Shown here: in pieces, positions 11,781 through 59,849 of the stretch | Numbering within the stretch: the first letter of the stretch is position 1 | Layout: each line of letters opens with the position of its first letter | From: Mesonia sp. HuA40 | GTDB taxonomy: Bacteria; Bacteroidota; Bacteroidia; Flavobacteriales; Flavobacteriaceae | Assembly: GCF_008017835.1 (NCBI RefSeq) | Contig: NZ_VRLT01000021.1 | Coordinates: 62,001 to 126,000 of the forward strand | Direction: 5' to 3' | DNA: 64,000 nucleotides | Position numbers and translations under genes: made by a program | The notes under the pieces: generated by a model | Told to the model about the DNA's origin: nothing | The model's input: only the letters and a program-made list of their open reading frames with translations | Databases searched by the model: none

Positions 11781-13664
11781 TTATTTCATCAATTCAAAAC
11801 TGCGTTTTACAAAATTGGTTAACTCTTCTCCTTTTAGAAGATTTTGAGAGAGTTTAGCCAAATCTAAAGCTTGTTTTATCGTTTTTTCTTGGACTTCTTT
11901 GTCTTGGTTTATTAGATCGCTCATGAGCGGATGATTTACATTTACCACCAAGTTGTACATATCTGGCATATTGCCCATGCCAAACATGCCCCCACCACCA
12001 GTTTGTTGCATTTCCTTCATTCTTCGCATAAATTCGGGCTGGGTAATCATTAATGGTGCCGCATTGCTATCCATAGGTTCTAATTGAACGGTGTATTTTT
12101 CTTTGGGTACAATGGCTTCAAAATCCGCTTTAAGCTTTTCTTTTTCCTCGTCTGATAATTTAGAAACCTGGTTCTCTTCTTTTTTAATTAGGTTATCAAC
12201 ATGATCGCTATCTACCCTAACAAAGGAGATGTTTTCTTTACTGCTTTCTAATTTTTGAATTAAATGTGCTACAATAGGAGAGTCTAATAATAACACCTCA
12301 TAGTTTTTCTCTTTTGCCGCTTGAATATAGCTGTGTTGCTCATCTTTATTTGAAGCATAAAGTACAACCGTTTTACCGTCCTTATCGGTTTGATTGGCTT
12401 TAATTTTTTCTATCAGTTCATCATAGGTGTAATACTTTTCGTCTACACTGGGGTATAATGCAAATTTGTCTGCCTTTTCAAAGAACTTGTCTTCAGAAAG
12501 CATACCATACTCGATTACCACCTTAATATCGTTCCATTTTTTCTCAAAATCTTCACGATTTTGGTTAAAGAGAGATTTTAATTTATCGGCTACTTTTCTA
12601 GTAATGTAACTTGAAATCTTTTTAACTGCTCCATCGGCTTGTAAGTAAGAGCGCGAAACGTTTAACGGAATGTCTGGTGAGTCAATTACTCCCTTAAGCA
12701 TGGTAAGAAACTCTGGTACAATTCCTTCTACATTGTCTGTAACGAAAACTTGATTTTGATAAAGCTGTATTTTATCTCTCTGCATACTCAAGTCATTAGA
12801 GAGTTTAGGAAAGTATAAAATACCGGTTAGGTTAAAAGGATAGTCTACATTTAAATGAATGTGAAAAAGTGGTTCCTCAAACTGCATTGGGTAGAGCTCC
12901 CGGTAAAAGCTTTTATAATCTTCTTCTTCAAGATCTGTGGGTTGCTTGGTCCAGGCCGGATCTGGATTATTGATTATGTTATCTACAGTAACTGTTTTTG
13001 CTTCTTCATCTTCTGGAGCATCTTCTGCCTTAGGTAAAGTTTTCTCTTTTGTACCAAACTTAATGGGCACAGGCATAAACTTATTGTATTTTGTCAATAG
13101 GTTTTCTATGCGTTGCTCTTCTAAAAATTCTTTTTCTTCTTCGTTGAGGTGTAAGATGATTTCTGTCCCCCTATTTTCTTTTGTGGTTTCTTCTAAAGTA
13201 AACTCGGTGGTTCCTTCACAAGTCCAATGTGCTGCGGGCTCATCTTTGTATGATTTGGTGATAATTTCCACTGTATCGGCCACCATAAAGGCAGAATAGA
13301 ATCCCAGACCAAAATGACCAATAATACCGCTATCTTTTGCCGAATCTTTATATTTTTCTAAAAATTCTTCGGCACCAGAGAAAGCTACTTGGTTGATGTA
13401 TTTTTCTACTTCATCTTTAGTCATTCCTACACCTTCGTCAATAATATGCAAGGTATTGTTTTCTTTGTTAATTTTCACCTCAATCACGGGTTTACCATAA
13501 GTTACATCGGTCTCACCAATGCGGGTAAGGTGCTTTAGTTTTAAGGTTGCATCTGTTGCATTTGAAATTAACTCACGTAAGAATATTTCGTGGTCGCTGT
13601 ATAAAAATTTCTTGATAAGCGGAAATATATTCTCTACCGATACATTTATTTTTCCTGTTGCCAT
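11781..13664 (-). CDS. htpG: Molecular chaperone HtpG (Hsp90)
   Basis: ATP-dependent cytoplasmic chaperone. The 627-residue protein has the GHKL ATPase domain with LRELISNATDA near residue 30, DEGVGMT and the GHFGLGFYSAFM lid motif, then the middle domain and the C-terminal dimerisation domain. A Gly/Met-rich stretch (GGGGMFGMGNMP) lies near residue 560. Upstream it shares a composite sequence element with hsp20 (see 13697-13738), which suggests joint heat-stress control. It is a single-gene unit with its own terminator. Confidence 0.97.
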   Translation of the reverse strand: MATGKINVSVENIFPLIKKFLYSDHEIFLRELISNATDATLKLKHLTRIGETDVTYGKPVIEVKINKENNTLHIIDEGVGMTKDEVEKYINQVAFSGAEEFLEKYKDSAKDSGIIGHFGLGFYSAFMVADTVEIITKSYKDEPAAHWTCEGTTEFTLEETTKENRGTEIILHLNEEEKEFLEEQRIENLLTKYNKFMPVPIKFGTKEKTLPKAEDAPEDEEAKTVTVDNIINNPDPAWTKQPTDLEEEDYKSFYRELYPMQFEEPLFHIHLNVDYPFNLTGILYFPKLSNDLSMQRDKIQLYQNQVFVTDNVEGIVPEFLTMLKGVIDSPDIPLNVSRSYLQADGAVKKISSYITRKVADKLKSLFNQNREDFEKKWNDIKVVIEYGMLSEDKFFEKADKFALYPSVDEKYYTYDELIEKIKANQTDKDGKTVVLYASNKDEQHSYIQAAKEKNYEVLLLDSPIVAHLIQKLESSKENISFVRVDSDHVDNLIKKEENQVSKLSDEEKEKLKADFEAIVPKEKYTVQLEPMDSNAAPLMITQPEFMRRMKEMQQTGGGGMFGMGNMPDMYNLVVNVNHPLMSDLINQDKEVQEKTIKQALDLAKLSQNLLKGEELTNFVKRSFELMK

Positions 13665-13696: not shown

Positions 13697-13738
13697 AGTC
13701 AAAAAAAATACCAATTCTAGATATCTGACAAACTGGCA
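13697..13738 (-). promoter_or_regulatory. Putative stress promoter element of htpG
   Basis: Read on the minus strand: TGCCAGTTTGTCA (13738-13726), 11 bases, then TTGGTA-N8-GACT (13714-13697), where the eight bases are all T. The same order, motifs and spacing occur upstream of hsp20 at 49544-49585. The GACT end lies 32 bases before the htpG ATG. Confidence 0.6.
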
Positions 13739-49512: not shown

Positions 49513-49585
49513 TGACAAAATGACATTAATTAAAAAGTTTTAACGACAAAATGGCAGGTTATAGCAATTGGTATTTAATTTGACT
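49513..49585 (+). promoter_or_regulatory. Putative stress promoter element of hsp20
   Basis: Two copies of a TGnCA-N3-TGnCA-like motif occur: TGACAAAATGACA (49513-49525) and CGACAAAATGGCA (49544-49556). The second is followed after 11 bases by TTGGTA-N8-GACT (49568-49585). The htpG gene has the same arrangement with the same 11-base gap at 13697-13738. The GACT end is 28 bases before the hsp20 ATG. Confidence 0.6.
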
Positions 49586-49613: not shown

Positions 49614-50045
49614 ATGAGTTTAGTAAAGCAGACAAATCCTTGGTTAAAGACAGCCTTTGAAGATTTATTTCAAGAAGACAGATTCAGTTCAAGTGCGGCA
49701 AAAAGTTTGGGAGTTCAAATTCCAGCAGTAAATATTATCGATGATGAAAATCAATTTGAAATTGAATTAGCTGCTCCAGGAAAAGTTAAAGAAGATTTTA
49801 AAATAGAATTGAAACAAGATTTATTGGTCATTGAATCAGAAACAAAGACCATCGAGAAACCCGAAAAGCCAAAGTATTCGCGTAGGGAATTTAATTATAG
49901 TCAGTTTAAACGGTCTTTTACTCTACCAGATTCTATTGACGTTGGTAAGATCAAAGCAAAATATGAACAAGGAATTCTACGTGTGATCCTACCTAAAAAA
50001 GAAGAATCAACAATTTCGGGCAAGAGATTAATAGAAGTTGCATAA
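49614..50045 (+). CDS. Hsp20 / alpha-crystallin small heat-shock protein
   Basis: A 143-residue ATP-independent holdase that binds unfolding proteins. The alpha-crystallin domain covers about 38-135, with VNIIDDENQFEIELAAPG and YEQGILRVILPKKEE, which includes the conserved GILRVILP. The N-terminal arm is short. The upstream region carries the element shared with htpG, in line with heat-stress control. A terminator follows. Confidence 0.95.
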   Translation: MSLVKQTNPWLKTAFEDLFQEDRFSSSAAKSLGVQIPAVNIIDDENQFEIELAAPGKVKEDFKIELKQDLLVIESETKTIEKPEKPKYSRREFNYSQFKRSFTLPDSIDVGKIKAKYEQGILRVILPKKEESTISGKRLIEVA

Positions 50046-52166: not shown

Positions 52167-54488
52167 CTAACGTTTTAGCGTTAAATGCCCCTTAAAACTA
52201 CGTGAATTTTTAAATCGTATTATAAACCAATAATCATTAGAGGGCATAGGTTTGCCGTTGTAGTTACCATCCCAATATTGATAAGGATTCATTTGATGAA
52301 TTAGCTTGCCATAACGATCATATATCAAAACATACTCGATGTTTGGGTCTTGCCGACTTATACCTTGTAAGCGCCAAACGTCATTGACCCCATCTTGATT
52401 GGGAGTAAAAAATGCCATAAATCCTGGGATATTAACTTTTATGCTTGCTGTACCACATCCGTAAAGATCACGAGCATAAATGATATGCTCTCCCAAGCTA
52501 AGCGTATAGGCTGATTGAGTGGAGAAGTCTTGATTTTGATCAATAGCAAACGCATAGCTGCCCGTTCCAGAAGCTTTAATGGCTATTCTGCCGCTACCAA
52601 ATGGAGGTAGCAGCTCATAACTCAACCTAGGAAGGCTAGAAGGGATTACCTTAAATTCTTTTATTTTTTTACAAATAAATTCTTCTTCTTGAATACTAGT
52701 GGTTTGAGAAACCTCTACCCAATATTCACCAATTTCTTGTATTTTTATTTGTGGCGTCGTTTCTCCTGTACTCCATAAAAACCGATAAGAATTAGAAGGT
52801 TTTAGTTTGGTCGTTAGCGTGATTTCATCTACCGCTTCGCATAGTACAATTTCTTCATATGCCTTAATTTTTGGTTGAGGAGCAGCTAATAATTCAACTT
52901 CAATAATGCCAATACAAGTTGTTGCGTTTTCAATTTTCGCAAATAGAATTAAAGGCAATTCTTCAGCATTAAATTGGATATTAATGGGTAAGGAGTTTTC
53001 TCCTTTTAAAGCATCTTCTGCAGTTTGATAGTAGTTGATCCGTTTTCCTGGCGCATTAAACATGCTTTCAATTTGGGTAGTGGCATCTACTAAATTGTAT
53101 CTTACAAAACCCTCGGTATCAGGACAATTAATTAAGTTGATTTTGGTTTTAGGATTTTCTGTAGTTTCAAGGCGCAATTCACAAATATGATAACATCCTC
53201 TTGCCGTTTCTACCCGCGCAAATATCACTTGATTTTTAAGGGTGTTTTCAAAATTAATAGTAGTGGTAATAGGATTACTTTTGTTCTCGGCATTTAGTGG
53301 ACTGGTGTAAAAAGCTTGCACCTTATACAGAGTATTATTATTGGTTATGACACCAATACTAGACTCCAAATTAAAAATACTTAAACCATCATCGTCCGTA
53401 TCACAAGCAAGCAGCGTCTGGTTGTTAATTTCTTTAAAGTCAATATACTCCACCTCAATTTCATCTTCGGCAATGCAAGCGTTTCCATAATCTAAAACCA
53501 ATTTATATCTGCCTGCTTGATTTATTGAGTAGTTTGCTTCATTGGGACCGCTGGCTAATAGAATATCTGGAGCGTTTTCTTGTACCGCATACCAACTATA
53601 AGTTTGCGGAGTATTAGCAGTATTTTGGGAGCTAAGGCTGTAAACCTCTCCTGGACATAAGCCGTTTTCGCCCACTAAATCCTCACCCAAATTGGCACCA
53701 ATATTAAAACTACCTCCTTCTAAAAATACGGCAGAATCATAGCGATAATTTTTTTCATCGGCAATAATCAATTTGATATGGTAACTGGTATTAGGAATAA
53801 CATCTGCCGTAGCGGTCAATGTTTTGGTCTGACCATTAAAATTTATAGCAGCATTAGTTGGGTTAAAGCGATCAAAATAGGCTTCATTTTCTGCTTCGCA
53901 ACCTCCAGGAATAGCGGGGTGAACCGTAGTTACTTGTACTGGAGTATTGGTTCCTGGTACTACAGCAATATTAGAATAAGTTCCGCCTTGAGGTTTAATT
54001 AAAAAAGCAAAGACATCTGAATATCGGCAGGTGTTGGGGTCATTTTCTTGGTATTCTTCAGACGCGAATATATAATTAAACTGAATTTGATTAGCATTGG
54101 GCGTAAAATCAAATTCAATGATGCTGGCGTTTACGGTTCCTTGAACATTCAGCACTTGTTCTAAATCATTGTCTCCAACCCAGTTGGGCGCATCATCATC
54201 GCTTAAGGAAGTATTTGGTCCTGGGACATTAGAAAGTCTTCCCGTAGACATTACCACGCCATTAGCAAAAGGAAAAGAGGAATTGTTATTAGTAAAATAC
54301 CCGTAGCTCAAATCGCCACCACTAAAATTACCGCTAACAGCGTTGGTTACATTAACATTGCTAATGCAACCGCTATCCATTAAAATGTCTTCTATAAGTT
54401 CTTGTGGCGTAAAATTGGTTTGAACACTAATGTTCTGTCCAAAAACCGGGTAAAAAATAAGAATTAATAAAAATTGAAAAAATTTCAA
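52167..54488 (-). CDS. T9SS type B secreted protein with choice-of-anchor L domain
   Basis: A 773-residue exported protein with a signal peptide. The N-terminal region (about 25-260) has the choice-of-anchor L pattern (FANGVVMSTGRLS, FNYIFASEEYQEND). Long Ig-like stretches with cysteine pairs follow. The end (FFTPNQDGVNDVWRLQG to GHLTLKR) is the gliding-motility-associated C-terminal domain, the type B signal of the type IX secretion system. The protein is therefore probably exported across the outer membrane, to the cell surface or the medium. It is the last of three similar genes on this strand. Confidence 0.9.
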   Translation of the reverse strand: MKFFQFLLILIFYPVFGQNISVQTNFTPQELIEDILMDSGCISNVNVTNAVSGNFSGGDLSYGYFTNNNSSFPFANGVVMSTGRLSNVPGPNTSLSDDDAPNWVGDNDLEQVLNVQGTVNASIIEFDFTPNANQIQFNYIFASEEYQENDPNTCRYSDVFAFLIKPQGGTYSNIAVVPGTNTPVQVTTVHPAIPGGCEAENEAYFDRFNPTNAAINFNGQTKTLTATADVIPNTSYHIKLIIADEKNYRYDSAVFLEGGSFNIGANLGEDLVGENGLCPGEVYSLSSQNTANTPQTYSWYAVQENAPDILLASGPNEANYSINQAGRYKLVLDYGNACIAEDEIEVEYIDFKEINNQTLLACDTDDDGLSIFNLESSIGVITNNNTLYKVQAFYTSPLNAENKSNPITTTINFENTLKNQVIFARVETARGCYHICELRLETTENPKTKINLINCPDTEGFVRYNLVDATTQIESMFNAPGKRINYYQTAEDALKGENSLPINIQFNAEELPLILFAKIENATTCIGIIEVELLAAPQPKIKAYEEIVLCEAVDEITLTTKLKPSNSYRFLWSTGETTPQIKIQEIGEYWVEVSQTTSIQEEEFICKKIKEFKVIPSSLPRLSYELLPPFGSGRIAIKASGTGSYAFAIDQNQDFSTQSAYTLSLGEHIIYARDLYGCGTASIKVNIPGFMAFFTPNQDGVNDVWRLQGISRQDPNIEYVLIYDRYGKLIHQMNPYQYWDGNYNGKPMPSNDYWFIIRFKNSRSFKGHLTLKR

Positions 54489-54569
54489 AATACCAGTTTA
54501 AAAATGGGGAACAAAAATACAACTAAATAGTCTTTTGTTAATCTATAAACGGGTTAAAAATCAATTAAA

Positions 54570-56951
54570 TTATCGGTTCAAGTACACCCAGCCTTTAATG
54601 GGTTTAAAGTCGGGGTCATTTAAATTAAGCACATAGAAATAAGTGCCTGTTGGCAACTGTTTCCCTACATTGTTTAAGCCAACATTGCTAGTACCGTCCC
54701 AATTGGGGGTTTGATTATTTCCTTGATAAACCAAATTTCCGTAGCGCGAAAAAATCTTTAAATCAAAGCGTTCAAATACAGTATAGAGTCCTTTGATTCT
54801 AAAAACATCATTAATTCCATCATCATTCGGAGAAAAACCTTCAGGAATCCAGGGGGGGCAATGCTTGGTGCCAATCAATAGGCGGTATATTTTATGGCAT
54901 TCGTTGGGATCGTCAAAAGTTGTACGCAAATAAATTTCCTGCGGATTTTGGGTATTCTGATACGTATACGGATTTTTAATTGGATTTTCCTGCGCTTGTG
55001 CGAACGATAATGAGGTATAAAAATCAAATATTTCTTCATTATCTTTTAGATCTAATTTCAGTGCTAAATCGTATAAATCAAATATATTTTGGTTATACCC
55101 TAAATCGCAGCGCGTAACCGGTACTGAATTTTCAATGGCTATGGGCTTTATGCCTAATATAGTATCTAAAATCACAAAACAATCTTCAAAATCAGGGTGT
55201 TGAATCCTGATATAAATAAGCATTGGGTTTTGATTATTTATAAAAGCTTTAGGGTTGGGAATGGGGTTGGTATTTGATATTGCCTCATCTAAACTTGTGA
55301 AATATAAAAATCTGTATGCTGAAGGATTGGATAGAATTTCAGATTCAAGTTGTGTTAAATCAACTATACCAACTTCTTCTTGAGTGGTGTTATTACAAAC
55401 AACGATATCAGCCGGTTGATTCCATTGTGGTAAGGTGTAAACTTGTATGGTAAATGAAGTAATTATATAGCAATTTGGGTCTTGTAGGCTGGTTAACCTT
55501 ATATAAATTTCTTGCGGATTGTTCGTGTTTTCAAAAGCAGTAATATCAGTTATAGGATTTTGATTGTTTTGCGCTTGAATAAAATCCGTAAAGAATGAGA
55601 CTTTTACCTGCGTTTGATCGCCCTTTACCAAAGCGAGGTTGGTTGAAAAGTCAAAAATAGCCTTTGGTGTGGTGAATTGTTCTTGGCATACTTTTAAATC
55701 TTTTGGAGGCTGAGCAATAAATAAGTTTATCAAACTAGTAGGTTGTTCTGCGGTGTTATCATTTTTATTTAATTCTGGAATTATGACCTGTTTATTAGCA
55801 TCTAAATTGACTTCAATTTTTAAATTAAAATCTTGCGGAATACTATTGGGTATATTCAGTTGAGTAGTGAAATCTTGAAATGCGCCAACGGCAATGGGAC
55901 TCGGTGTAAACTCTTCTTTAAGAAAAGTATTATTCGCAAAAAATTTAACCGAAGTATTTGCGGGTAATACATCTGTACCGTTGGTATTGGCAATTCTATA
56001 GCTTAAATCGATGGATTTGGTGTTACAAACCGCGGTTACATCAAGAAAGCTAGGTGTAGGATCGGGTAGGGTGCTATTGAATACGGTAACAATATTACTT
56101 ACAAAAACAATATCGGCAGAAGAGTTAAGCTCTATACTTGCCATTGTATCTCCTATGTTGATGTAATTTTGAACATCGTACACATCTAGATCCATATTGT
56201 AAAGGTTGGTAGAACCGGTAAAAGAGTTGGTGCCATTAAAGGCATTGTTAGAGGGATTAAGACTATTGGAGAGTGTGTTGCCATTCAGTTTTAAGGTTTC
56301 GTTTACAGCTAGTGCCGAATCACCTTCCCAAGTAAGAAAACCAATTTTTGCTCCTTGATTGTCTATGACGTTTAGATTGTTTAGTTGAATACTCAAAGGG
56401 GTGCCGGTAGCGGCAAGGGTAACAAAACCATCGAAGACATCAACTTGATTTAGAGGTAAACTAAGGTCTTCATAAACAATAATAATACTCCAACCTCCAA
56501 AATTCATGCCGATATTACAATGACCATTATTGATAAAATTGGTTAAATCTAAATTAGATAATGTGTAACTTCCTGTTCCTGTATTTTGAACTTGGGTAGT
56601 CACATCTTTAAAGGCAGCAAAAAAATCAAGATTATTGATGTTATAATTAAAGGTACGATCAGCATTTAGGCTTTGGTTGTTTAAACTTACATTAAAATCA
56701 CCGGGCCCTGATCCGGCCCAGTATAAATAAGCGGCAATAATATTTTGATTGGCGGCTAGATTAAGATTTGCCGAAGAGGAAGTTAAAATGGTACAATTGG
56801 TAGAATTTTCATTTTCGACAACATTAAGTGTATTTCCTATAGCGAGATAATCATATTGCCCGTTGAATTGTTGGAATTTGGTTATAGGTGTTTGTGCAAA
56901 TCCGTGAAAACCACTTAAAATAAAAGCTAGAGCGAATATAAAAAACTTCAT
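54570..56951 (-). CDS. T9SS type B secreted repeat protein
   Basis: A 793-residue protein with a signal peptide (MKFFIFALAFILSGFHGFAQ). The N-terminal half (about 40-300) contains a beta-rich region (AAYLYWAGSGPG, WSIIIVYED) as in other large surface proteins, followed by several repeats with NPQEIYIRL / NPQEIYLRT-type segments. The type B sorting domain ends it (WIPEGFSPNDDGINDVFRIK to GWVYLNR). It follows the frameshifted paralogue by 43 bases. The biological role is probably in adhesion or surface structure; no enzymatic domain is visible. Confidence 0.88.
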   Translation of the reverse strand: MKFFIFALAFILSGFHGFAQTPITKFQQFNGQYDYLAIGNTLNVVENENSTNCTILTSSSANLNLAANQNIIAAYLYWAGSGPGDFNVSLNNQSLNADRTFNYNINNLDFFAAFKDVTTQVQNTGTGSYTLSNLDLTNFINNGHCNIGMNFGGWSIIIVYEDLSLPLNQVDVFDGFVTLAATGTPLSIQLNNLNVIDNQGAKIGFLTWEGDSALAVNETLKLNGNTLSNSLNPSNNAFNGTNSFTGSTNLYNMDLDVYDVQNYINIGDTMASIELNSSADIVFVSNIVTVFNSTLPDPTPSFLDVTAVCNTKSIDLSYRIANTNGTDVLPANTSVKFFANNTFLKEEFTPSPIAVGAFQDFTTQLNIPNSIPQDFNLKIEVNLDANKQVIIPELNKNDNTAEQPTSLINLFIAQPPKDLKVCQEQFTTPKAIFDFSTNLALVKGDQTQVKVSFFTDFIQAQNNQNPITDITAFENTNNPQEIYIRLTSLQDPNCYIITSFTIQVYTLPQWNQPADIVVCNNTTQEEVGIVDLTQLESEILSNPSAYRFLYFTSLDEAISNTNPIPNPKAFINNQNPMLIYIRIQHPDFEDCFVILDTILGIKPIAIENSVPVTRCDLGYNQNIFDLYDLALKLDLKDNEEIFDFYTSLSFAQAQENPIKNPYTYQNTQNPQEIYLRTTFDDPNECHKIYRLLIGTKHCPPWIPEGFSPNDDGINDVFRIKGLYTVFERFDLKIFSRYGNLVYQGNNQTPNWDGTSNVGLNNVGKQLPTGTYFYVLNLNDPDFKPIKGWVYLNR

Positions 56952-56994
56952 AATAAACTACTTTTATATAAAAATAGTTAAAAATGTAGATAGA

Positions 56995-59849
56995 CTAGCG
57001 TTTTAAAGTGAAATGTCCTTTTATTTCTATATTGTTCTTTAGTCTGATTATATACCAATAGTCATTAGATGGCATAGGCTTTCCGTTATAATTGCCATCC
57101 CAGCCTGGGCGTTCTGCATTAAATTGATAGAGCATTTTTCCAAATCTATCAAAAATTAATACCTCGGTGCCGCGCAAGTTATCTTCGTATTTACCTAGGA
57201 TTCTCCATTTGTCGTTAATACCATCGGCATTGGGCGTAAAAAAACGCATTAAGCCCAAAATGCTTACTTTCTTAGAAGTTATTCCGCAGCCTTGTTCGCT
57301 TTTGACATAAACGGTATATACTCCTGGAACCAAATTGTCGAAAAAAGGAGTATCTTGGTATGGACCTTCAGGACTTTCTATCGCGTATTGATAGCTGCCC
57401 AAGTTTTCTGGGTCTAAAATTACTTGAATACTACTATCTAAAGAGAAGTGCGTTTCTTTGGTCGTAAATTTTGCTTTTCCCACAGGAATTAAAGTAAATT
57501 TCTTACTCTGGGTACACCCATCTTCGTCGGTTACCCGTACAGTGTGAGTGGTAAGTTCTGCAGTATTAATACTAGGAGTGGTTTCGCCAGAGGGCTCCCA
57601 TAAGTAGGTGAATTTTTTATCTGATGGAGCATCGACGCTTACCGATAAGTTAATAGGGTTGGGACTGTTTTCTAAACAGTAAAAAATTTCTTCATCTGCA
57701 CCTAAACTAAAACTATTATTGAATTCAAAATTAATTTGATAAATGTCAGGGCAACCAATCCCATCGTCGGTTAAATAAATACTAAAGGGTAGGTTTTCCT
57801 TAACAATTTCAACCGTATCTTCTGTGTAAGGATTAATTTTTTAACCGCTTCATCTTCTGTGCGATAAAATTTAGGATTATTAAAGCTAATGTTGGTAGCT
57901 TCTATTATCGAACTGAACTCCTTGCTTATTTTTTGATCTATATTGCAAACTATTTGTTGAATAGGTATAAGATTGTAATTACTAGTATCAAGCGTTAGCG
58001 TAGCTTGATTTTTGCAACTGGTTTGGGTGTTGATTAATTGAACTTCAAGCTGTGTAGGTAGGTTAGCGGGGGTATAGTTTTGTGGGTTAGAAATTAGATT
58101 TTTGTTATTGTCTTTATCCCATTCGTAAAATTCAAAAACCAAATTAGAATCGGGAAAATCGGCGCTTAGCTTTTCGCGGATTTCGACTAGATTAAATACT
58201 GGCTGTTGGTTGGTTCGAGTACATTGAAAATAAGTGTAATCTTGAATATCGGGTAAAGCTTCAAACGTGATATTGGCAGTTCCTATCAAGGGACATTTCC
58301 CGTCGTTAAAGGTAATTTCTAAAATATATTCTTGGGTTTGTGGAAATCCTAAAGACAAATCTGGGGTAACCAATAAGCTGTTGCCAGTAACATTAGGAAG
58401 GGGAGAATCGTTTTTAGACCAAGTGTAGCTCGCGTTGGGTAAATTGAGATAAGCCAATTGATAATTTTCGGACTCGCACAAACTGATATTGGTAATTAAT
58501 TCATCATCATCTTGATTGATAATGTTGATGCGGTCTACAAAAAATGACTGAATAAAAGGAGGTAACCCAAAAACCGCATTTTTTTGAGCTAACGGAACAG
58601 CACCTTCAAAAGTACTTTCGGTATATTCAATTGAATTGAAATCGGCATTCGGGTTTTTTATTACTGCCAATTTCGGTTCGCCAATAACGGGTTTATAAAT
58701 TCTACCATCTGGACCTAATTGTAGGGCAGTGGCTTGCTCTGAGGTTGTGATGAGAATTTCATTTATACTGGCGGCCATATTGGACGCAGTTAAATCCCAT
58801 TGAAAAATCTTATTTGCCAGATTATCATTAGCGGTGGCATAAGCTTTTGTCGAATTTGCACTAAACTCTACGCCGTATGGGTTTACGTTTTCAACTAGGG
58901 CAGTACTACTTGTAACTTGACCAGTGGTAGGATTAAAATCTGATAAATATACCCCGCCATTTGGCAAATCATCACCACTAGTTGGATCAAAGGTTTTGGT
59001 ATGATGCGCAGTTAAAATTTTTAAACCATCGGGAGAGGCTTTAATATAACCCAATGCGGCTCTTCTGTAGGCGTTTAATGGTATATTAGGACCTATAGTT
59101 GAGATTACTGGGGTGGTGTTTATTCCATTTTGATCTATTTTAAAGGCATAAAAGCTATTAACAAAATGTGTAATCACCCAAATACTGCTACAATCTGCCC
59201 CTTTAACCGCCGTAATCTTCTCAGAACATTTATATTTTAATTCTTCAGGATCATTTTGATCATAGGTTATTAAATGTATATTTTTTTGACCAGTTACTAC
59301 ATCTCCTAATCCGTTGTTTAGCGTCATATCGACGACGGAGTAGTTAAAGCCATTGTTGAAACCATCATCGGCTACGGGTACAGCAGTGTTAGTGTCGCTG
59401 TAATTGGCTTGTGGAATCCCGTTGCTATTGGCCGGACCTTGATTGGGGTAAGCGAAAGCATTTTGGTGGTGTGGTTCATCAACCGTGAAAATAAAATACA
59501 AATCTTTATCTCCTGGATGAGGTACAATAAGTGCACTGCTTGTACTACTAGGATCGCCATGAAGCCCAGAATTACCATAATAATCGGCATTGCCCATAAT
59601 TTGGTGGTTTCGGTTCCAAACTGTTCTACCGTCTGAGTAAAACAGAAGATTTCCCGAAGCGTCTGAAATACTAGAGCAGCCTTCAGAGGTATTAATTTGA
59701 CCATTGGTTATGGCTGTAGGAGTGCCATTATCAAAGTTTATACCTGCGTTGTATCCAAAATACCAATTGTTAGCTTGCCCTTGGGCTTGTATATTTAAGT
59801 TGTTAAAAATAAGTAGAATTGATACAACTAGTGCAAGGCGAAAATTCAT
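56995..59849 (-). pseudogene. T9SS type B secreted protein, interrupted by a one-base frameshift
   Basis: The signal peptide and first 681 or so residues read in one frame from ATG 59849; the natural frame breaks at an A6 run at 57837-57842 (minus strand) and ends at 57771 in unrelated residues. Adding one A gives GTT AAA AAA ATT and an uninterrupted frame down to 56995, about 951 residues. Across the join it would read NPYTEDTVEIVKENLPFSIY, then Ig-like repeats and the type B C-terminal signal (MRFFTPNADGINDKWRILG to GHFTLKR). N-terminally it has a six-bladed-propeller-like WNRNHQ / ADPH-like region with many Gly, as in other large surface proteins. As written it would make a truncated, unsecreted-tail product. 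It may be a sequencing error, a real mutation or a phase-variable tract. It lies 13 bases after the ABC permease gene. Confidence 0.85.

Follow-up and report, generated by a model that had tools for sequence, protein, structure and literature searches.

Control of the heat-shock response is, by textbook account, exerted through sigma-32 or through HrcA and its CIRCE operator, and to our knowledge the Bacteroidota mostly lack both. Promoters read by sigma-54 carry a -24/-12 consensus with GG-N10-GC spacing and require an AAA+ activator, the classical sites of which lie at about -80 to -150.

The closest described system is that of Flavobacterium psychrophilum, in which sigma-54 starts were mapped at htpG, dnaK, grpE and groES (Guerin et al. 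2021, PMC9723704). Its SM4 promoters, gathered in cluster B254 and carrying a -24/-12 motif, serve groESL, lon, dnaK, grpE-dnaJ and htpG; five of the sigma-54 starts at these genes fall into one co-expression cluster, and three predicted PF00158 proteins are put forward as perhaps distinct activators, with the activator of these starts left unassigned in the main text of that paper (PMC9723704). A survey of the Bacteroidota predicts sigma-54 control of GroEL, GroES, IbpA, GrpE, DnaJ and DnaK and quotes the sigma-54 consensus as TGGCAC-N5-7-TTGCT (Carrera-Reyna et al. 2025, PMC12316311). Section 19 of that survey refers the sigma-54 dependence of GrpE and GroES in two Bacteroidota to a Blattabacterium genome paper (its reference 80), a citation that is apparently misnumbered. 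The starts of F. psychrophilum and the 2025 survey thus make sigma-54 control already known in a relative of Mesonia sp. HuA40, from which the window analysed here, the whole stretch of 64,000 nucleotides, is taken.

The composite element and the genes that it precedes

An earlier note, made from the letters of the window, had placed one composite promoter element upstream of both htpG and hsp20 with an identical spacing of 11 bases, and both copies read back exactly, as TGCCAGTTTGTCA-N11-TTGGTATTTTTTTTGACT on the minus strand (13738-13697) and as CGACAAAATGGCA-N11-TTGGTATTTAATTTGACT on the plus strand (49544-49585). The two 18-base boxes are identical at 16 of 18 positions, as had been counted, and the second repeat copy described for hsp20 was found. 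The features of the two loci are as follows.

13726..13738, minus strand: inverted repeat of htpG, TGCCAGTTTGTCA, the proposed EBP35 activator site, centred at about -45
13697..13714, minus strand: sigma-54-type -24/-12 box of htpG, TTGGTATTTTTTTTGACT
13687, minus strand: predicted transcription start of htpG (A), from the usual sigma-54 geometry
11781..13664, minus strand: htpG, HSP90 chaperone (Pfam PF00183)
49513..49525, plus strand: distal inverted repeat of hsp20, TGACAAAATGACA, 42 bp above TTGG and 31 bp from the proximal copy
49544..49556, plus strand: proximal inverted repeat of hsp20, CGACAAAATGGCA, 11 bp above TTGG
49568..49585, plus strand: sigma-54-type -24/-12 box of hsp20, TTGGTATTTAATTTGACT
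49595, plus strand: predicted transcription start of hsp20 (A), from the usual sigma-54 geometry
49614..50045, plus strand: hsp20, small heat-shock protein (Pfam PF00011)

These two genes had been regarded as the sole cytoplasmic chaperone genes of the window, and a Pfam scan that took in 36 of the 53 ORFs of the window named no other, the proteins named including the membrane insertase YidC. Elsewhere in the window (52167-57483), three adjacent ORFs carry a C-terminal CHU_C type IX secretion signal domain.

Searching for the 42-base composite with at most 3 mismatches gave 2 matches in the window vs 0 in 100 dinucleotide shuffles, and 2 matches in the 2.64 Mb genome of the organism vs 0 for the reversed pattern; a chance origin of the composite is rejected, as the counts lie far beyond shuffle expectation. 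With a looser pattern and 1 mismatch, the same genome was matched at four places, all outside ORFs of at least 120 codons and situated upstream of htpG, hsp20, dnaK and grpE, the latter two genes having been identified by Pfam. It follows from the shuffle and genome counts, together with the dnaK and grpE matches, that the composite element is real and that its gene set is wider than the window. The element is absent from trxA of this genome, and groES has a poor core with one repeat 21 bp above it; since the regulon was sought with one pattern and few proteins, it may be larger in this genome. The 18-base box alone was rejected as the unit: at up to 2 mismatches it gave 320 genome matches vs 236 for the reversed control, and among its 23 places at 0-1 mismatch (L003-L025) only those of htpG and hsp20 are promoter-placed, that is, outside ORFs of at least 100 aa and with the start of an ORF of at least 60 aa within 100 bp downstream.

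The exact pattern was then followed through one genome per species in 84,980 species, where at least 80 loci were matched, and all 80 listed lie in the Bacteroidota (assigned by taxon name, with four less obvious genera looked up). If the next gene is taken to be the longest of the ORFs that start no more than 400 bp downstream, the 80 listed loci precede genes for DnaK (54), GroESL (11), HtpG (9), thioredoxin (3) and Hsp20 (2), with one not callable (L171, no gene in 659 bp), so that 79 of the 80 stand before dnaK, htpG, groESL, trxA or hsp20. At nine of the groESL loci it is groEL that lies at 325-359 bp, presumably with groES between; cluster representatives of the next genes were confirmed by Pfam in five of six cases and HtpG by its sequence.

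A search of 148 genomes of the phylum with one mismatch allowed returned 71 matches. In the class to which Mesonia belongs, 32 of 37 genomes held a match (reversed control, 1 of 37) and five held none at one mismatch, as compared with 7 of 111 genomes of the other classes (reversed control, 2 of 111). The 64 own-class matches were labelled by BLAST to reference proteins, with clpC and miaB labelled by Pfam on one member each, as htpG (21), grpE (21), dnaK (10), hsp20 (3), trxA (3), clpC (2) and the miaB-EBP35 operon (2), and 11 of the 64 overlap a predicted ORF of at least 120 codons on one strand. Hence 62 of the 64 precede heat-shock genes or this operon and 2 do not, a placement far from the random scatter that the earlier note had named as the finding to speak against its reading. 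Nor did the other such finding named there, absence of the element from further heat-shock genes, come about: it stands before dnaK and grpE of the own genome, and elsewhere before dnaK, groESL, trxA and clpC. The proposal of a heat-shock regulon promoter is supported by these results. The agreement of the genes is not built in, as the search patterns were DNA only, with the caveat that genes of the same family share ancestry and that the genome samples are phylogenetically uneven.

The 7 matches outside the class comprise two at hsp20, one at groES, one located 270 bp before secA and three that are chance-like. The hsp20 and groES matches (L361 in G089, L362 in G060 and L363 in G105) may mean that some version of the system is older than the class. 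Within the family, 21 genomes searched gave 17 matches, including dnaK, grpE and one secA. The element also occurs before secA in one genome (L106), clpC in two (L347, L348) and thioredoxin genes in three (L316, L357, L358), which hints at drift of the regulon between lineages.

The -24/-12 box and the phased inverted repeat

The downstream box, TTGGTA-N8-GACT, can be written as TTGG-N10-GA and thereby has the GG-N10-G spacing of sigma-54 -24/-12 elements. At spacings of N11-13, the composite was present upstream of htpG in all 59 genomes of a same-family set (30 + 29 loci, L044-L073 and L261-L289), 52 of them matching exactly, 5 with 1 mismatch and 2 with 2, as against 0 of 1,180 mononucleotide-shuffled upstreams at up to 2 mismatches; G048, one genome of 60, had no htpG match and stands outside the 59-genome set. 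The distance from the repeat down to TTGG is 11 bp in 41 of these promoters, 12 bp in 17 and 13 bp in the remaining one. The TGG of the -24 element, the GG-N10-G spacing and the G of the -12 TTG are invariant among the 59, and the sixth place of TTGGYA is A in 58. After the -12 TTG, 34 promoters have A, 16 have T and 9 have C, which makes the C usual for sigma-54 the exception at htpG promoters. The pattern is accordingly TTG[A/T]C where TTGC[A/T] would be usual, with A or T after TTG in 50 of 59 and then C in 47 of 59; in the window this base is at 13699 for htpG and 49583 for hsp20.

A single rpoN is encoded in the own genome. As rpoN and EBP35-like proteins are each universal in the phylum sample (148 of 148 genomes), their co-occurrence is uninformative. 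From the form of the box, and from the starts mapped at the same genes in F. psychrophilum, we infer that sigma-54 is used at these promoters in Mesonia sp. HuA40.

The earlier note had set this promoter apart from the normal TAnnTTTG class and had seen no CIRCE box, and both observations stood. A sigma-A TAnnTTTG -7 box at 12-21 bp below the repeat was found in 0 of the 59 htpG promoters, and a sigma-A promoter at htpG is rejected for want of such a box at sigma-A spacing. The CIRCE operator, TTAGCACTC-N9-GAGTGCTAA, had 0 matches in the window at up to 3 mismatches, and was likewise rejected at the own htpG, hsp20, dnaK, grpE and groES loci, where the best match had 6-7 mismatches of 18.

The upstream half of the composite, TGnCA-N3-TGnCA, is an inverted repeat and, judged from its arrangement, behaves like an activator site. 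Of the family's 30 hsp20 loci, 20 have an exact sigma-54 core, and the other 10 were left out as the exact core was missing in the range scanned. The 20 upstreams hold 28 repeats at up to 1 mismatch (300 shuffles gave 0.5 on average and never more than 4), at distances of 11, 21, 32-35, 42-43, 51-53, 73-76, 85-86, 95 and 105 bp from TTGG, with one overlapping match at 3. For the 22 repeats beyond 15 bp, the vector strength peaks at 10.5 bp among the eight periods compared (R 0.82, a value as high being reached in 0 of 20,000 uniform draws), and without the common 42/43 class it is 0.72 (n=13, p 0.0006), these p-values being optimistic since the sequences are related and repeats overlap. The two hsp20 repeats of the window, at 11 and 42 bp, are part of this 10.5-bp series. 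The repeat thus shifts by 10.5-bp steps, as would an enhancer read on one face of the DNA.

A second repeat above the composite was encountered at 5 of 79 listed loci (shuffle mean 2.0) and 2 of 30 htpG loci (shuffle mean 0.4). Both perfect second repeats at the listed loci are those of two hsp20 loci (L147, L194), and in the listed loci and the 30 htpG upstreams the tandem arrangement is mostly missing at dnaK, groESL and htpG promoters. With its centre as near as -45, the site gives the DNA little scope to loop, which counts against the enhancer reading. What is gained beyond the earlier note is that the downstream box is of sigma-54 type, that the upstream half is probably the site of a separate regulator, placed in helical steps, and that there is a strong candidate for this regulator.

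Candidate activators and the miaB-EBP35 operon

Three strong enhancer-binding proteins were recovered from the own genome, seven further PF00158 matches being weak. According to Pfam, EBP34 has a receiver and an AAA domain with no HTH or other DNA-binding domain, EBP35 comprises Sigma54_activat, an AAA lid and HTH_8 with no Response_reg, and EBP36 is a response regulator of NtrC type (receiver-AAA-HTH_8). The EBP35 gene (C60:190366-191637 in the own genome) is situated between miaB and lptE in the one-strand order miaB-EBP35-lptE-TPR-secG-groES-groEL, and its product has a linker of 120 residues between AAA lid and HTH and no recognised sensor domain. The HTH end of EBP35 is conserved across relatives, in a comparison from which L326 is missing, in which L252 is partly misread and which includes the reference twice (ref, L319). 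EBP34 (L034, C33:27960-28460 in the own genome), with its receiver and AAA+ domains alone, is conserved in many relatives; on this domain make-up it may work from solution, and solution-acting activators of such kind have been described for some other groups (PMC3372290).

Relatives with small genomes narrow the choice. Ten of them keep the htpG element, and in eight of the ten EBP35, 66-76% identical, is the only HTH-bearing activator found (five of these eight assemblies being 80-93% complete), while EBP36 was found in only two. The activator loci of the small relatives could be typed in 19 of 20 cases, with the exception of L252, the end of which looks EBP35-like. A loose look at G174, which belongs to another order and measures 2.0 Mb, showed a relative of EBP35 (56% identity) as the sole activator candidate; htpG of this genome carries the element with 0 mismatches, at a place overlapped on the opposite strand by a predicted ORF of 206 codons.

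The promoter of the miaB-EBP35 operon carries the same repeat. It is perfect in 18 of 20 promoter regions, or in 16 of 18 once two regions are excluded (L387 and L388) that had been included because the one-mismatch pattern had already matched there; the misses are L382, where no miaB was seen in the region, and L386, where the repeat has one mismatch. Beyond those 18, the 28.7 kb of operon regions hold no perfect repeat, and none was present at the EBP34 or EBP36 loci. A TAnnTTTG box follows at 16-20 bp below the repeat in 17 of the 18 promoters and at 10 bp in the remaining one, the own promoter being TGTCAGTTTGTCA-N17-TATCTTTG. The repeat therefore covers the -33 region of this sigma-A promoter, a position suggesting that a bound protein blocks it, and EBP35 probably represses its own miaB-EBP35 operon through this repeat in the manner of PspF. 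On three grounds, namely that a conserved site precedes its own gene, that other candidates are eliminated in small relatives and that its HTH end is conserved, EBP35 is most likely the protein that would bind the repeat and act as activator.

Proposed mechanism, rival readings and known systems

We consider it highly probable that the composite is an enhancer-dependent sigma-54 heat-shock promoter, the repeat of which is bound by an AAA+ activator, most likely a self-repressing EBP35. The polymerase with sigma-54 would be held at TTGGYA...TTG (-24/-12), with the AAA+ activator placed on TGnCA-N3-TGnCA at 11-12 bp upstream or further away by whole helical turns. EBP35 would be supplied at a low level from its auto-repressed sigma-A promoter, and its AAA+ ring would open the chaperone promoter once the protein is free to act. 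PspA inhibits PspF in trans, and by way of a guess the stress signal might be the release of EBP35 from an inhibitor in trans or from free chaperones. The wider proposal, in which cytosolic heat shock throughout the Bacteroidia would run through one dedicated EBP35 with its site at about -45 on one helical face, a TTG[A/T]C element, self-repression and release from a trans-acting partner, possibly chaperones, is one whose chances we judge to be evenly balanced.

A sigma-54 promoter could also be served by another activator, namely EBP36, which too has a Fis-type HTH, or the widely conserved EBP34 acting from solution while another protein binds the repeat. This we regard as unlikely, as EBP36 occurs in so few of the small element-keeping relatives (some of these genomes being incomplete to the extent given above), Pfam shows no DNA-binding domain in EBP34, and the perfect repeat is placed at the EBP35 operon and not at the loci of the other two. 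The position of the repeat over the -33 region at miaB-EBP35 is one that a repressor would take, and a separate repressor might thus use the repeat as its operator, as HrcA uses CIRCE, over a sigma-54 or other promoter, with heat removing the repressor. Such a reading appears improbable: the 10.5-bp phasing, extending to about 95 bp above the hsp20 core, suits an activator better, an AAA+ activator would be needed at sigma-54 promoters anyway, and CIRCE is lacking in the window and at the own chaperone loci.

Most improbable of all, in our estimate, is that a factor of the sigma-70 family, sigma-A or an ECF factor, reads the box as an unusual promoter. The prevalence of A/T over C after TTG is indeed atypical of sigma-54; against this stand the invariant TGG and GG-N10-G in all 59 htpG promoters, the lack of TAnnTTTG at sigma-A spacing in every one of them, and the sigma-54 (SM4) starts of the same genes in F. 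psychrophilum (PMC9723704).

With the SM4/B254 promoters of F. psychrophilum, the loci presented here share the bacterial family and the genes; the upstream repeat, its phasing and a working activator are absent from the main text of that paper (PMC9723704). The prediction of the Bacteroidota survey is made by promoter matrix and, in the text of its prediction, comes with no upstream site or activator (PMC12316311). A search of the main texts of the open-access literature brought up no mention of the repeat, the phasing, the role of EBP35 or its auto-site. The start-site map of 2021 identified the sigma factor in a single species, F. psychrophilum. To this the present analysis adds a conserved site with its phasing signature, puts a name to a candidate activator and predicts a feedback loop, by which chaperone control across the large phylum Bacteroidota becomes a directly testable question.

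With the HrcA/CIRCE and sigma-32 systems the target genes are the same, the difference from HrcA/CIRCE being that no CIRCE was found in the window or at the five own loci compared, with a sigma-54-type box in its stead. The nearest likeness in architecture is to PspF, a receiver-less AAA+ protein with a Fis-type HTH that drives stress genes on sigma-54 and has its own gene on a self-repressed housekeeping promoter. EBP35 is likewise receiver-less with AAA+ and Fis-type HTH regions and would serve stress genes with sigma-54-type promoters, its self-repression being predicted. It differs in its putative targets, which are cytosolic chaperones and not psp, in its neighbours (miaB, lptE, TPR, secG, groES and groEL, with no divergent psp genes), in the long linker between AAA lid and HTH, and in a proximal site at about -45.
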